Source of the DNA: Theristus sp. LFF4_11
Taxonomy: Eukaryota > Nematoda > Chromadorea > Monhysterida > Xyalidae
Assembly (NCBI GenBank): GCA_030248135.1
Contig: JASANC010005482.1
Coordinates: forward strand, 62,001-126,000
Length of the DNA stretch: 64,000 nucleotides
Direction: 5' to 3'
Part shown: positions 16,558-58,701 of the stretch, piece by piece
How the letters are laid out: each line of letters begins with the position of its first letter
Position numbering within the stretch: the first letter of the stretch is position 1
Notes under the pieces: model-generated
Seen by the model: only the letters and a program-made list of their open reading frames with translations
What the model was told of the DNA's origin: nothing
Database searches by the model: none
Translations under genes and position numbers: made by a program

Positions 16558-16620
16558 TTTTTATTTATTTTTTTTTTTTTTTATGTTTTTTTTTTTTTTT
16601 TTTTTTTGTTTTTGTTTTGG
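16442..16620. repeat. Homopolymer tract (G run, then poly-T)
   Basis: Low-complexity DNA: a run of about 12 G followed by more than 100 bases of nearly pure T. It sits between the palindromic element and the truncated family B element. Assembly in this tract may be unreliable. Confidence 0.8.
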
Positions 16621-17393
16621 TTTTTCGATTTGGATGACTTCTAGAGTCAATTTTTAGCGTTGAAATGATTTAACTGAATTGAAATATCGTTTCAGAAATC
16701 GTTTTCTTGCAACTTAGAACATGTTTTTTTTCAGTCGGTAGGCCATGAGATGAACATGATATTTTGTTGATTGGCGTATGTTATAGGTCTACAATGGAGT
16801 TGTGCGATATATTGTTAAACAATTGGAGCGGAGATGTTGGTTAATACCACATCACACGACCGTTTTTCAGATACCCGATAACATGGCCACATGTTAAAAC
16901 TTGCGTGCTGAGCTAAACTAACGTGTTAAACTTGCGTCTGTCAGTTGCCCGCAACGTGATCGCGAAATCATGGTACGTGTTTTCGATACGATGATTTGAA
17001 GAGTGGGCTCTCGCCATGTGGCAGATAGCATAGCTGGTTGAACCTGAAAGAAAGTGTCTTGGGGGGGGGGGCGACCGGGTCGACAGGGGTTGCCGACTTA
17101 GCTACAGCAAACAGGAATTTTTGAACACAGTCAAATTTTGGTAATTTTCTAAAGAGGAACAACTAAGAACGGTTCAATATTCAAGTACACGTCGAAAATT
17201 GTCCTGTTTTACTGTTGAAAATGCAACTTTCCCTCTATGAAATGGACATAATTTCAATAAAACACGATTTTCGCTCTTATAGTTTTCCGGATCGTTCTGA
17301 AAATAGTCTAGATGAACTCAGCTCGACGAGTTTTTTTAAATTTTTTTTTTTAATTTAAAAAAAAATCCGGATTTTTTTTCCTAACCCTAGGGG
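16615..17393. mobile_element. hAT-like element family B, left-truncated copy
   Basis: Closely matches 22205-23007 over its whole length, for example TTGGATGACTTCTAGAGTCA and CATGAGATGAACATGATAT, and ends in the same TCCTAACCCTA terminus. The left terminus is missing and replaced by poly-T. No transposase frame is visible. Similar relics lie at 44385-44575 (inverted) and 44800-45107 (direct). Confidence 0.75.
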
Positions 17394-17441
17394 GGGTGCC
17401 GACCAGTACCGAAGACGAGGGGGGTGGGGGGGGGGTACACA

Positions 17442-18175
17442 TAGGGTTGTTAAAAAAAACAAAAATCGTCATTTTTGTTTTTTTTTTTTAAAAAAAAATT
17501 TTTTTTTTAAAAATAAAATTGCAAAAAACAAAGTTGTGCTAAATCAATCAGGGAGTCCGAAGAACCACATATGATATGCAAGCGCCTCCCGAATGACTCC
17601 CGTATGGCGGAACTTTGCAGATTTTGTTTTGATGACCTCAATTACCCCTTTTCCAAACCGTCACCATGCCTCTTCTTGTGTTTTGACCTCCAAAACGTCA
17701 CTAATTGTCCCCAGCTAAGCTAATGCTAAAGTGAAGACAAACATACCGCCTTGAAATTCGATCAATTCTTCTGATGGTGTCGCGACGACACGACACGAAG
17801 CAGCAACCAGACAACGTAGCGCTTGCAAACGGAGCAGCGAGCACAATCGGACGCTCTGCGAGGCGAATCGTCACCTTATCTGCATCGGAAATGGTAGGCT
17901 AAGCTTTGGGACGCTCAAAAACTTCATCGCAGATGTTGTCGAAGCCTAAAATCAGTCGGTAAAACGGCCCAAAATCGACTGCTGAAGGTTTTACGAGGTA
18001 TAATCAAAGAAAATTTTTGTTGAACTTTCGAAAAATTGTGCCAAAATTGAGGTTTTCAGAGCATATTAGAGGAAAATTTTTCGAATTTTTTTTTAAAAAA
18101 AAAAATCGGCATTTTTGTTTTTTTTTAATCACTTTTTTTTAAAAAAAAAATTTTCATTTTTGTTTAACAACCCTA
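17442..18175. mobile_element. hAT-like element family A, copy 1 (intact, no nested insertion)
   Basis: 734-bp element starting TAGGGTTGTTAAA and ending TTTAACAACCCTA, exact inverted ends of hAT type. It is followed directly by GGCCGGCC and then copy 2. The interior is almost identical to copy 2, but it keeps an unbroken AAAGAAAATTTTTGTTGAAC at about 18006, which is the empty site for the element nested in copy 2. It has no transposase frame, so it is a non-autonomous (MITE-like) copy. Confidence 0.85.
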
Positions 18176-18183
18176 GGCCGGCC

Positions 18184-20872
18184 TAGGGTTGTTAAAAAAA
18201 AACAAAAATCGTCATTTTTGTTTTTTTTTAATTAAAAAAAAATTTTTTTTTCAAAAATCAAAGTTGTGCTAAATCAATCAGGGAGTCCGAAGAACCACAC
18301 ATGATATGCAAGCGCCTCCCGAATGACTCCCGTATGGCGGAACTTTGTAGATTTTGTTTTGGTGACCTCAATTACCCCTTTTCCAAACCGTCACCATGCC
18401 TCTTCTTGTGTTTTGACCTCCAAAACGTCACTAATTGTCCCCAGCTAAGCTAATGCTAAAGTGAAGACAAACATACCGCCTTGAAATTCGATCAATTCTT
18501 CTGATGGTGTCGCGACGACACGACACGAAGCAGCAACCAGACAACGTAGCGCTTGCAAACGGAGCAGCGAGCACAATCGGACGCTCTGCGAGGCGAATCG
18601 TCACCTTATCTGCATCGGAAATGGTAGGCTAAGCTTTGGGACGCTCAAAAACTTCATCGCAGATGTTGTCGAAGCCTAAAATCAGTCGGTAAAACGGCCC
18701 AAAATCGACTGCTAAAGGTTTTACGAGGTATAATCAAAGAAAATTTTTGGGCCTTTAACAAAACCACGGAGGCAACACGGAACACGGAGGCTGCACGCTT
18801 AACAAAACCACGGAGGCAACACGGAGGCTGCGTGCAGCTAAAGTGACCCATATTTTATATGCACACAACACGCTGCGCACCTTTAACAAAACCACGGAAC
18901 ACGGAGGCACGCGGATTTGGGGAGATTTGGGGACAGGACAAATCCGTTTCCTCCAAAAAAATATGTTTTTGTCAAATAAACAAACAAATAAATAAAGGCG
19001 CAATAAAGCAAAGCAAAGCTAAATGTCAAAACTAGACTTCTTACGGATTACGGTAGCTCTCCAACGGGTCTCGACACGATTTTTTAAAAACGTCCCTGAT
19101 TGCCAGCAAAAGATACTCTATTGGTGTACACCGTTCATATGATTGCAACAAACAGTCTTATGTTTGAAGTTCGGGCACACCGGTTACGGTAACGGTAGTT
19201 TTGGGTCTTGACACGAAGTTGCTGAAAACTACTTTGTTTCTTGCAAATAACAGTTGAAACCATATAGAAACATCCCGCATCATCACAGAACGTCAAAATG
19301 ATGGATGTCAAGGATTACGGTAACTCTGCAGTGGTCTCGACACGATTTTTTAAAATCGTCCCTGATTGCCAGCAAAAGATACTCTATTGGTGTACACCGT
19401 TCATATGATTGCAACAAACAGTCTTAAGTTTGAAGTTCGGGCACACGGGTTACGGTAACGGTAGTTTTGGGTCTTGACACGAAGTTGCTGAAAACTACTT
19501 TGTTTCTTGCAAATAACAGTTGAAACCATATAGAAACATCCCGCATCATCACAGAACGTCAAAAATCGGATTTTAAGGAGTACGGTAACTCTGCTGTGGG
19601 TCTCGACACGATTTTTTAAAAACGTTCTTTTATTGCCAAGAACTGTTACTAGAATGGTGGATACCGTTCACATGATTGAATTAAACAGTCATATTTCTGA
19701 AGTAAGGTCCCACGGGTTACGGTAGCTGTAGTTCGGTCTTGACACGAAGTTGCTGAAAACTACTGTGAATAACAGTTGTTTCTTGCAATCATGTGAACGG
19801 TGTTCATCAATTTAGTATTTTCCTGGCAATAAAAGGCAGTTTAAAAAAATCGCGTCGAGACCCACACAGCAGAGTTACCGTATTCTTTGAACTCAATTTT
19901 TGACAATTTGTGAAAACGCTGCGTGTTTCTAATTGGTTTCAACTGTTATTCGCAAGAAACAAAGTAGTTTTCAGCATCATCGTGTCAAGACCCAAAACTA
20001 CCGCTACCGTAACCCGTGTGCCCGAACTTCAAACATATGACTGTTTCATACAATCATGTGAACGGTATCCACCATTCTAGTAACAGTTCTTGGCAATAAA
20101 AGAACGTTTTTAAAAAATCGTGTCGAGACCCACAGCAGAGTTACCGTACTCCTTAAAATCCGATTTTTGACGTTCTGTGATGATGCGGGATGTTTCTATA
20201 TGGTTTCAACTGTTATTTGCAAGAAACAAAGTAGTTTTCAGCAACTTCGTGTCAAGACCCAAAACTACCGTTACCGTAACCGGTGTGCCCGAACTTCAAA
20301 CATAAGACTGTTTGTTGCAATCATATGAACGGTGTACACCAATAGAGTATCTTTTGCTGGCAATCAGGGACGTTTTTAAAAAATCGTGTCGAGACCCGTT
20401 GGAGAGCTACCGTAATCCTTGAAGTCTAGTTTTGACATTTAGCTTTGCTTTGCTTTATTGCGCCTTTATTTATTTATTTGTTTATTTAACAAAAACAAAT
20501 TTTTTTGGAGGGGACGGATTTGTCCTGTCCCCAAATCTCCCCAAATCCGCGTGCCTCCGTGTTCCGTGGTTTTGTTAAAGGTGCGCAGCGTGTTGTGTGC
20601 ATATAAAATATGGGTCACTTTAGCTGCACGCAGCCTCCGTGTTGCCTCCGTGGTTTTGTTAAGCGTGCAGCCTCCGTGTTCCGTGTTGCCTCCGTGGTTT
20701 TGTTAAAGGCCAAATTTTTGTTGAACTTTCGAAAAATTGTGCCAAAATTGAGGTTTTCAGAGCATATTAGAGGAAAATTTTTCGAATTTTTTTTTTAAAA
20801 AAAATCGGCATTTTTGTTTTTTTTAATCACTTTTTTTTAAAAAAAAATTTTCATTTTTGTTTAACAACCCTA
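18184..20872. mobile_element. hAT-like element family A, copy 2, with nested insertion
   Basis: Same TAGGGTTGTT...AACAACCCTA ends as copy 1, flanked on both sides by GGCCGGCC (18176-18183 and 20873-20880), a perfect 8-bp target duplication as made by hAT transposases. Without the 1,962-bp insertion at 18750-20711 and its 9-bp duplication it is about the same length as copy 1. Confidence 0.88.
18750..20711. mobile_element. 1.96-kb palindromic element with 9-bp target duplication (Mutator-like or foldback)
   Basis: Starts GGCCTTTAACAAAACCACGG and ends with its exact complement. It is flanked by AAATTTTTG at 18741-18749 and 20712-20720, a perfect 9-bp duplication. The same site occurs once, uninterrupted, in family A copy 1. 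The two arms are nearly identical complements meeting near 19730. Each contains two to three tandem units of roughly 270 bp with GGTTACGGTAACGGTAGTTT and TTGACACGAAGTTGCTGAAA. Nine-bp duplications and very long inverted ends are typical of Mutator-like elements. No transposase is encoded. The matching open frames in both arms are products of the palindrome. Distantly related motifs occur at 58240-58490. Confidence 0.88.
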
Positions 20873-20880
20873 GGCCGGCC

Positions 20881-21969: not shown

Positions 21970-23007
21970 TAGGGTTAAAGGCTTTGAAAAAAAAAATTTT
22001 TTTAATTTTTTTTTTCGTTTTTTTTTAAATTTGGATTTTTTTTTCAAACTTAAAAAAAAATTTGAAAAATTTTTCTTCTACTTTGCTCTGAAAATTCGAT
22101 TTATGGCATAATTTTTTGAAAGTTCAAACCAAATTTTCTTCCCAACTTCTTTGTGTGCTTAGGTACATGTCATTATTTGGTCATTTTGACCGACGTACTC
22201 CATGTTTTTCGATTTGGATGACTTCTAGAGTCAATTTTTAGCGTTGAAATGACTTAACTGAATTGAAATATCGTTTCAGAAATCGTTTTCTTGCAACTTA
22301 GAACATGTTTTTTCAGTCGGTAGGCCATGAGATGAACATGATATCTTGTTGATTGGCGTACGTTATAGGTCTACAATGGAGTTGTGCGATATATTGTTAA
22401 ACAATTGGAGCGGGGATGTTGGTTAATACCACATCACACGACCGTTTTTCAGATACCCGATAACATGGCCACATGTTAAAACTTGCGTGCTGAGCTAAAC
22501 TAACGTGTTAAACTTGCGTCTGTCAGTTGCCCGCAACGTGATCGCGAAATCATGGTACGTGTTTTCGATACGATGATTTGAAGAGTGGGCTCTCGCCATG
22601 TGGCAGATAGCATAGCTGGTTGAACCTGAAAGTAAGTGTCTTGGGGGGGGGGCGACCGGGTCGACAGGGGTTGCCGACTTAGCTACAGCAAACAGGAATT
22701 TTTGAACACAGTCAAATTTTGGTAATTTTCTAAAGAGGAACAACTAAGAACAGTTCAATATTCAAGTACACGTCGAAAATTGTCCTGTTTTACTGTTGAA
22801 AATGCAACTTTCCCTCTATGAAATGGACATAATTTCAATAAAACACGATTTTCGCTCTTATAGTTTTCCGGATCGTTCTGAAAATAGTCTAGATGAACTC
22901 AGCTCGACGAGACACTTCGAACAAACCTAACTTGTAAAAAAAAATTATTTTTTTTTTAATTTTTTTTTAATTTAAAAAAAATCCGGATTTTTTTTCCCCT
23001 AACCCTA
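21970..23007. mobile_element. hAT-like element family B, full-length copy
   Basis: 1,038-bp element beginning TAGGGTTAAAGG and ending CCCCTAACCCTA, flanked by GGTACACC at 21962-21969 and 23008-23015, a perfect 8-bp target duplication. It inserted into the G-tract repeat, whose normal text runs GGGGGGTACACCCCC. The interior matches the truncated copy at 16615-17393. Non-autonomous. Confidence 0.88.
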
Positions 23008-39482: not shown

Positions 39483-41156
39483 CTACAACGATTGTAAAAT
39501 GACATTTTTGCCCGATAACGACGGCGGAATCAACTGATCAACATCGGTTGATCCGTCAGGTCCCGACTCACCGTACATCCACAGGGCTGCCGATGCGCAG
39601 GCGGGGTGATGCTGGCTCAAATAATCACCGTTAGTTCGGGTGTTGTTGATGTCACCATTGACTCCGGCAACAGCCAACGGATGATGTTCCAGGTGTATGC
39701 CGTTTGTCGTGTACGCCCGTCTGATGTGGTCGAGATGTGTCTGATGCGCTGCTGATGTCGCATTGATCACGGGGTATTCTTGCGGTTGCAGTTGTTGTTG
39801 TTGTGCATGGTGCATTTGTGCAGCACTAGATGTCGCAATGTCCTCACTGTCCAGCTGCAGCACTGTTGCACCGCATGAAGGCTGCTGTTGGATTGCTGTT
39901 GTTCGCGGTTGATTTGACAATGGTGACTGAGTGATCACTGACGTTGCAACGGTTGCCATTGATGACACAAGTTTTTGCTGTGATTGGCCACGTTGATTTA
40001 CCTGCATCATATTAAACTTAGTTCATACATTTTTATTCAGCATTTTATAAAGCGACAGGATTGTTTTTGCCCACCTGATGTATGGTTGCATATTGTTCTG
40101 CAGTGAGTCCATTGGTGTGACCGGACACAGATGAAGGGAGCACCGGGTGATTGTGTGCAAACTGCGCTTGCACGCCAGCGCCTCCGTTCAACATCGGCAT
40201 CAGTTTCGACGGCGGTGGCGTTTGTCCGTTGAGAACAGCATAACCACTGAGGAACGCTGGATTGTTGTTATTGTGGTACAATTGTTGTTGTTGAGCATCG
40301 AGCAACGCTGCTGATGGCACCGACTGGTTATTATTATTGTTATTGCTGTTCATGCAGGGGTGACCAGCCGTTATAGAACCGTTCATCGATGCACCGTTCG
40401 CGTACATCGTCAAGTTGCCGTGCGGTGGAAGACATTTGCCAGTTTGATCGGGCCTCAGTTGCTTTGATTTGAGCATCGACAGGTCGCCACCACCGGATGA
40501 CGGCCGTTTGAGAACACTGTGCTGTGCGTGATTGCTGGCCGCTCTGCATTGTTGCTGCTGTGCCATCACAAGCGAATGATGGCCGTTCATGCGTGCCTGT
40601 TGCTGTTGGTGAGCATCAAAGACGCCTCCGTAAACGCCGTCCACGATTGTTCTATACTGCTGATGATGCGCATGATGAAACTCGGGCCTCGGCGGTTGCT
40701 GGTGCATCTGGTGATGCTGGTGATGGCTGGGGTGGCCGGCGGCAATGCCGTTCGTCGGTGGCCCGCTGTATCCGGTCGGCGGAACGTCGATAGTGCGCGA
40801 CTGATTGCAGCGTTTCTTTGCGCACATGGCACCGGGCAGATAGCGATTCTGGAAGAACTTCTTGTCGAGGCAGACGAGACAGATCTGGCACTCTGGAGTG
40901 GTGCGACAGTCCTCGCATTGGTTGCAGCCGGCCTTTGCCTTGAACGTCGGCGCGTCTCGTTGCAGACGATTCTCGAGCACCCGATGGCAGCGCCGTTCGA
41001 GGCACGACTGCTTCTTGACGCCAGGCCCGCCAAACTGTGGACTGTCCTGGCAGTAGACGCACAGGCCGCACGGCTTCGACTGGCAACCGGCGCAGACGCC
41101 GCAACGCTGCGACCGATTCATTGACAGCTTGCAAGGCTCAATGGTCACCGGTGAAT
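39483..41156 (-). CDS. Protein with two CXXC zinc fingers and Gln/His-rich tail
   Basis: Chromatin-type DNA-binding protein. Exon 1 runs from about 41156 (possible acceptor) or from the Met at 41121 to 40075. Exon 2 is 40001-39483, joined in phase 0. From Met-41121 it has 521 residues. The first CXXC finger (about residues 5-45) has the full pattern of eight cysteines in CGVCAGC, CGLCVYC, the QFGGPGVKKQSC block and ERRC. The FGG and KQ motifs are those that contact unmethylated CpG in KDM2, DNMT1 and CFP1. The second finger (about 62-105: CNQCEDC, CQICLVC, final CAKKRC) keeps the cysteines but lacks FGG and KQ, so it probably does not read CpG. The remainder is low complexity, rich in Gln, His and Asn, and probably disordered. 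No catalytic domain is visible. An upstream exon is possible because the open frame continues to a CTAG acceptor. Confidence 0.8.
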
Positions 41157-58239: not shown

Positions 58240-58500
58240 GCTATTTCAGCCGCGAAACTTTGTAAACCTACGTTATTTTGCACGGAAATTTTAAATTTTG
58301 ACTTTGTGGGTTACGGTAACGCCCGGTTTAGTCCCAACACGATCTTAGTTCCGTCAACAATCCACAAACAGCTTGGTAACCGCAACCAAACCGTTGAAAC
58401 ATGCTAGATTAAGGTTATTTTGCACGCAGATTTTGAATTTCAGCTTTCTGGATTACGGTAATGCCTGGTTTGGTCTCAACACAATTTTAGTTTTAAGCAC
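58240..58500. repeat. Two ~155-bp diverged tandem units
   Basis: Both contain TTATTTTGCACG, then GGTTACGGTAACGCCCGG or GATTACGGTAATGCCTGG, then AACACGATCTTAGTT or AACACAATTTTAGTT. They resemble the internal repeats of the palindromic element at 18750-20711. Confidence 0.6.
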
Positions 58501-58586
58501 AGCGTACACACACGACAACACACAACAACACACACACACGCGCGCAAATGCTAATTGTTTGGGATTGGGTTAGACCAAGAGACTTT

Positions 58587-58701
58587 CAATTGTAGTGACC
58601 AATCTCGCTAATATATGCAACTACCTGATTGGTTGGTCAATGCAATTCTCAGCGCTGATTGGTTACTCATGAGGTGTTACGTGGGTGCGTCACTACAATT
58701 G
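58587..58701. mobile_element. 115-bp MITE with CAATTGTAGTGAC ends
   Basis: Perfect inverted ends CAATTGTAGTGAC and GTCACTACAATTG. The inside has GATTGGTTGG-type sequence like families D and E. Confidence 0.65.

Follow-up and report, generated by a model that had tools for sequence, protein, structure and literature searches.

What kind of element has split one of two neighbouring hAT-like copies in the genome of the nematode Theristus sp. LFF4_11, and by what means might it have arrived there? The locus lies within 64,000 nucleotides of contig JASANC010005482.1 (assembly GCA_030248135.1, positions 62,001 to 126,000); this whole stretch is here called the window, and coordinates count from its first base unless they carry one of our working labels (C and L numbers). 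Two near-adjacent copies of a hAT-like element are present, one intact and the other divided by a 1,962-bp palindrome flanked by a 9-bp direct repeat – an arrangement that an earlier note on this DNA had described correctly to the base. Our data lead us to regard the insert as probably a non-autonomous, foldback-type DNA transposon of the nematode genome, one that enters DNA at a 9-bp stagger and is mobilised in trans, most likely by a Mutator-like transposase.

The evidence begins with the preservation of an empty and a filled target site side by side. The hAT-like copies, both on the plus strand, are 8 bp apart. Copy 1 (17442-18175; 734 bp, with ends TAGGGTTGTTAAA...TTTAACAACCCTA) holds the empty site: the text AAAGAAAATTTTTGTTGAAC is uninterrupted and AAATTTTTG occurs once, at 18011-18019, plus strand. 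In copy 2 (18184-20872) the equivalent place is divided by the palindrome (18750-20711, no strand assigned), with AAATTTTTG on each side, at 18741-18749 and 20712-20720, both read on the plus strand. Aligned end to end with copy 1, after removal of the insert and one duplicate, copy 2 is 96.3% identical (7 mismatches and 20 gap positions). Copy 2 is in turn flanked by a clean 8-bp duplication, the unstranded GGCCGGCC, which at 18176-18183 doubles as the spacer between the copies and recurs at 20873-20880. Copy 1 has no such duplication, its flanks being GGTACACA and GGCCGGCC; it is therefore not itself a clean single insertion, and its history is less simple. At this locus the order of events is supported: the hAT-like element came first and the palindrome second.

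Whether the 9-bp duplication belongs to a family of elements was asked of the complete assembly, which comprises 3,744 contigs and 159 Mb. Exact matches to the 20-bp terminus GGCCTTTAACAAAACCACGG number 262 (66 + 72 + 124); the reversed control patterns have none. Flanking 9-mers, whose tabulation the earlier note had proposed, were analysed for 238 of the 262 termini; this list comprises 75 adjacent, facing pairs and 88 unpaired termini, the latter likely reflecting interruption at a contig end, mutation of the second end, or truncation. The two 9-bp flanks are identical in 64 of the 75 listed pairs, against 0.9 expected when right flanks are shuffled among pairs. Three pairs show a single mismatch; two, three and four mismatches are found in one pair each, and two of these three pairs, C2128 and C2189, are runs of G or A (the remaining five pairs are weighed below). 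Further exact pairs outside the 75 are the window copy, C3710 and C262. The window insertion is thus neither chance nor a local oddity, and the 9-bp duplication is supported as a property of the family: the observation is more general than the window alone could show. The 64 exact 9-mers reveal no target consensus past A/T richness, and the exact terminus is absent from IMG/VR viral contigs. Sequence of the hAT-like kind adjoins 14 of 63 flanks by a loose criterion, several of these being only 71-81% identical; we make no claim of a preference for hAT-like targets.

The same data bear on the proposal that the arrangement is an assembly artefact, with a palindrome collapsed or mis-joined next to a tandem duplicate. 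Long palindromes are hard to assemble, and C673 and C1600 share both a length (1,409 bp) and a 9-mer flank, as duplicate or allelic contigs would; these two may indeed represent one insertion on two contigs. But dozens of contigs carry exact 9-bp duplications of differing target sites, which mis-joins cannot produce, a fact that refutes the proposal in general and leaves it with next to no probability for this locus.

The element itself has a distinctive anatomy. The window insert can be aligned to its own reverse complement from end to end, at 89.4% in an alignment of 1,980 columns; gap-free arms run to 401 nt (97% identity), 294 nt (98%) and 254 nt (100%). It holds no open reading frame of at least 90 amino acids. 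The outer arms, about 290 bp on each side, are 98% complementary, and both ends of the element start GGCCTTTAAC. The left outer terminal domain (18750-19043, plus strand) contains three copies of the 16-bp motif TTAACAAAACCACGGA (up to 4 mismatches allowed) and pairs with the right end at 98% complementarity along 294 nt. Next come two tandem arrays delineated by Tandem Repeats Finder: on the left, 2.7 copies of a unit of about 266 bp (19045-19764, plus strand); on the right, inverted, 2.5 copies of a unit of about 267 bp (19777-20437, minus strand). By motif count the insert has 3+2 of these subrepeat units. The right outer terminal domain (20421-20711, minus strand) is an inverted version of the left, and on its inner side it runs into the right array as delimited by the program.

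This plan – outer arms with repeats of the 16-bp motif, followed by inverted tandem arrays of the ~266-bp unit in variable number – is general to the family. At the same tolerance, arm pairs carry the 16-bp motif as 3+3 in 16 of the 19 elements counted, the rest being 3+2, 2+4 and 4+3. The number of ~266-bp units gives rise to a ladder of lengths, most readily seen in 16 elements free of the ~480-bp core described below, where one unit motif was counted on either strand: 1+1 at 1,168-1,186 bp (three elements), 2+1 or 1+2 at 1,372-1,451 bp (seven), 3+1 at 1,683 bp (one) and 3+2 at 1,962-1,964 bp (two). Unit count follows length in 13 of the 16 by one motif, and in 11 if a second motif must agree, the two motifs being in conflict in C191 and C339; C773 (1,285 bp), C2609 (1,722 bp) and C496 (1,754 bp) stand off the ladder. 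Across the 75 listed pairs the size classes are 1,005-1,190 bp (13 pairs), 1,285-1,295 bp (2), 1,392-1,519 bp (30), 1,630-1,754 bp (8), 1,854-1,990 bp (4) and at least 2,089 bp (18). These classes may have arisen largely through gain and loss of arm units. Some copies are lengthened by a core of about 480 bp, which is common to four longer copies (L074, L075, L076 and L078; 95-100% identity), encodes no frame of at least 100 amino acids in them, and has 34 matches in the genome, 12 at full length and 4 spanning positions 73-480.

Homogenisation of the two arms within an element was considered and rejected. Median arm identity is 98.3% within elements and 97.3% between them, and among the 46 arms of 23 elements just 4 have their own partner as nearest relative; in 4 of the 23 the arms are interrupted and align badly (49-74%), which lowers the means.

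Both hallmarks of foldback elements are present, namely long inverted ends with variable tandem subrepeats, and discrete termini with duplications at many sites. FB elements of Drosophila melanogaster, too, are foldback elements whose arms contain tandem repeats and whose target duplication is 9 bp; they differ from the palindrome family in unit length and host, a separation made on description and not on sequence. Both structural features of Mutator-like elements (MULEs) are present too: long terminal inverted repeats, and a 9-bp duplication that falls within the 8-11 bp range given for the superfamily in extracts of PMC6446971, where Phantom duplications are put at 8-10 bp or not indicated.

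How, then, might the palindrome move? A transposase encoded at some other genomic locus would bind the repeated motif of the outer arms, excise the element and insert it, in cut-and-paste fashion, at a 9-bp staggered cut. It would be little constrained by sequence, and filling in of the staggered ends would leave the 9-bp duplication. In the window, the element would have entered a pre-existing hAT-like copy. The transposase would most likely be Mutator-like, perhaps of the FLYWCH/Phantom kind found in animals. This assignment rests on the 9-bp duplications and the long composite ends, because no transposase of its own was seen in the 30 complete copies read, and no such termini near the nine MULE-domain loci. 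The earlier note had read nine-bp duplications with very long inverted ends as pointing to Mutator-like elements; the structural part of that reading holds, in that the features fit Mutator-like or foldback elements, while membership itself is something we infer, a transposase-coding copy having been sought and not found.

Comparison with known systems is consistent with the assignment, and the closest are Tm1 and Tetris. Tm1, of root-knot nematodes (Meloidogyne), is a Mutator/Foldback family with a Phantom-type transposase and 9-bp duplications; flanks of 8-10 bp, mostly 9-bp duplications, are given for 45 of 53 complete elements (PMC3169594). Like the palindrome family it lives in a nematode, has composite ends that vary in length, makes mostly 9-bp duplications, includes many non-coding copies and lacks a clear target consensus. 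It departs from it in having asymmetric ends with 7-bp motifs (A1 CGGTTAA and A2 CCTACCC), whereas the palindrome starts GGCCTTTAAC at both; in its tandem units of 13-15 bp as opposed to about 266 bp; and in possessing a copy that codes for 496 amino acids, whereas no coding copy was found for the palindrome. Tetris of Drosophila virilis is laid out very much like the palindrome: it has an outer domain, tandem units in variable number (about 220 bp each), a variable non-coding middle and 8-10 bp duplications; its autonomous copy, too, was not found, and it was assigned to Mutator on structure (PMC4079207). It differs in its insect host, its unit and an additional inner domain, and three structurally complete copies are described, compared with 64 exact-duplication pairs here (PMC4079207). 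The Phantom and Muta MULEs of animals also resemble the palindrome: their target duplications measure 8-10 bp, they often have long ends that contain subterminal repeats, and their non-coding derivatives are many (PMC6446971, PMC5225508, PMC2884549). A FLYWCH+MULE frame of Phantom type exists in this genome, though not in the palindrome copies read; the difference is that the palindrome termini have no linked transposase. The earlier note called such elements less often described in small invertebrates, a remark to be amended: along with Tm1 (PMC3169594), the literature has Muta1-14 in the mosquito Aedes aegypti, where Muta1 has non-coding derivatives (PMC5225508), and ten Mutator families, Phantom-like ones included, in Daphnia pulex (PMC2884549). 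A literature search by kind of element, not by sequence, produced no description of this particular family.

A critical issue is the source of the enzyme. The MULE domain PF10551 has nine matches in the genome, from a search of intron-less frames in which 24 first-look candidates were scored and which a spliced or divergent transposase could escape. One match, C280 (L062), is a frame of 555 amino acids with FLYWCH and MULE domains (Pfam); its best protein match, at 27% identity, comes from Rotaria socialis and combines FLYWCH and MULE as well (7,996 candidates scored, two proteins reported). A second, C753 (L061), has a MULE frame of 529 amino acids, and the DNA of the two is 99% identical over 2,451 bp; the Pfam domain assignment covers the C280 member of this pair. 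Terminal repeats are not recognisable around either frame, the sole inverted repeat around C280 being 28 bp, and the two could be degraded elements or host genes. Since a FLYWCH+MULE frame is present in the genome, a suitable enzyme source exists or existed. We nonetheless infer the enzyme and have not found it, because the search for a coding partner yielded no transposase with these termini.

Several observations weigh against a Mutator-mobilised family with a 9-bp stagger. Thirty complete copies were read end to end (27 of the 75 listed pairs, with C262, C3710 and the window copy; 48 listed pairs were not), and in none was a transposase of its own seen; the longer, MULE-coding copy that the earlier note had suggested looking for did not emerge. 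The only coding fragment seen between termini is a piece of hAT transposase, at C172:14782-17720 (L019, L042). Nor does the 74 kb around the nine MULE-domain loci contain a terminus with up to 5 mismatches of 20 or a palindrome match: two places have 6 mismatches of 20, and a looser, 16-bp terminus gives two matches with 4 mismatches each, at C1426 and C1421, which we take as chance. Finally, five of the 75 listed pairs have unrelated flanks, with 7 or 8 mismatches (C1107 twice, C1655, C3498 and C2137). Copies without the duplication had been named in advance as potentially damaging; five in 75, two of them on the rearranged C1107, do not refute the family property.

The lack of any MULE gene linked to these termini would also be expected if the enzyme that mobilises the foldback element came from another superfamily, possibly an undescribed one, with a 9-bp stagger, and two reports do indicate that foldback structure has evolved independently in different transposon lineages (PMC3169594, PMC4079207). 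Yet 9 bp together with long composite ends is a usual Mutator signature (PMC6446971), and a FLYWCH+MULE frame is present in the genome; we therefore consider another superfamily unlikely. Still less likely is a combination in which the transposase falls outside the known 9-bp cutters, the Tetris-like layout evolved independently around it in this nematode, and the missing MULE link is genuine as opposed to overlooked.

Two named superfamilies deserve mention. Galileo, a foldback element of the P superfamily, has long, internally repeated ends and is the basis for one alternative. P-type duplications are 7-8 bp, as against the near-uniform 9 bp seen here, and on that comparison a Galileo-like origin is very unlikely. 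Merlin duplications are 8-9 bp, and duplication length, and nothing else, speaks for a Merlin-type element; the Merlin domain DDE_Tnp_IS1595 (PF12762) has no genome match at E 0.001 among intron-less frames and first-look candidates, and we attach marginally less credence still to this origin.

The hAT fragment of C172 raises the possibility that a hAT transposase mobilises the palindrome and that the fragment is the palindrome's own gene. The terminus-bounded C172 does hold a frame of 285 amino acids, equivalent to the C-terminal portion of such a transposase (PF05699 dimerisation domain, E 3.8e-14), and it was examined, and rejected, as a coding copy. The fragment sits between two palindrome pieces that overlap by about 10 bp, as for a nested insertion, which it looks like; perhaps it is the remnant of a coding hAT element. 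It occurs in just one of the 30 complete copies. Moreover, hAT duplications are 8 bp, as in the hAT-like family here, against 9 bp for the palindrome. A hAT mover is accordingly highly improbable, and a Mutator-like transposase acting in trans continues to be our preferred explanation.

Other long copies were likewise tried as candidate parents. Nested elements supply much of their length, hAT-like copies being found in C230, C423, C414, C53 and L077, and other repeats lengthen L075, L079 and L098. C230 (5,436 bp) was discarded as a longer parent since its additional length is mostly nested hAT-like copies; in C414 (3,967 bp), also discarded, two hAT-like copies explain part of the length, and the intervening stretch of about 1.07 kb was left unassigned, like some 745 bp in C423. 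C1653 showed initial promise as an autonomous copy, with pieces of the 480-bp core across more than 4 kb and similarity to the MULE locus C1426 at the protein level. It was rejected: the DNA it has in common with C1426 lies outside the MULE frame and resembles a separate repeat at both places, and its seven frames have no Pfam match at E 0.1. Six further frames (in L074, L076, L077, L006 and two in L079) gave no Pfam match above the curated cut-off, with two weak matches below it in L074; remaining frames inside copies were assessed by eye only. Within the palindrome copy L075 lies a smaller second inverted-repeat element (L075:1914-2496) with TTCCGGCC-rich subrepeats, and a repeat found at L079 from about 417 and at C1426 near 58300-58700 is apparently tRNA-derived (by eye, like a short interspersed nuclear element).

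Nesting between the two families runs in both directions. The palindrome lies in a hAT-like copy not only in the window: C403 is a second filled site, whose overlap against the hAT-like reference is again exactly 9 bp, and C2566 is nested this way round too, with identical 9-mer flanks and an overlap of 8 aligned bases. Conversely, hAT-like copies with exact 8-bp duplications lie within palindromes in C414, C53, C423 and L077. The sequence of events proposed by the earlier note thus stands for this locus and fails as a general rule. In C414, C53 and L077 the hAT-like copy occupies one shared palindrome site (GTGCAGCC / GGCTGCAC), while the 9-bp flanks of the three palindromes differ; either this site is a hot spot for insertion or palindrome and hAT-like copy travelled together. 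The hAT-like family, examined only as its short non-coding form, is abundant: its end TAGGGTTGTTAAANAAA has 2456+2393 exact genome matches, compared with 1+1 for the control. An exact 8-bp duplication is present in 8 of 15 end pairs and absent in 7, one of the seven being C230 (866 bp), which joins the ends of two different copies. Two duplication-less hAT-like loci, at window 17434-17441 and L025 (C773), have the left flank GGTACAC(A/C) in common; such words occur also near window 21964, ahead of a different, TAGGGTT element.

The palindrome family adds a nematode member to a known class, that of non-autonomous foldback transposons with 9-bp duplications, and by itself opens no new mechanism. 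Its value lies in the number and clarity of its copies, with exact target duplications at 64 terminus pairs, in a subrepeat ladder that lets growth and loss of the arms be traced, and in the partner hAT-like family with which it nests both ways. A coding partner, if found, would reveal an enzyme that tolerates near-perfect palindromes of 1-2 kb.

Some minor observations remain. At C1107:61024-65600 (L017, L024) two palindromes, both without the 9-bp duplication, directly flank a segment of 846 bp that ends in an inverted repeat of 121-125 bp (96%); this may be a composite or a rearrangement. At C3498:13270-15358 the 9-bp flanks agree at 8 of 9 positions when inverted instead of direct, which suggests an inversion or two different events. 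In the window, the nested cluster is bracketed by a repeat at 16620-16918 and 22204-22500 (98-99% identical to each other), relatives of which were noted by eye inside L073 and L098. COX1 has no match in the assembly. Farther away in the window, on the minus strand at 40045-41148, is a frame with a CXXC zinc finger, the single gene by which the sequence itself places the host among the nematodes. Its protein search (7,980 candidates scored) returned 53 matches, most spanning a third to half of the frame; the organism is given for 45 of them, and it is a nematode in all 45.

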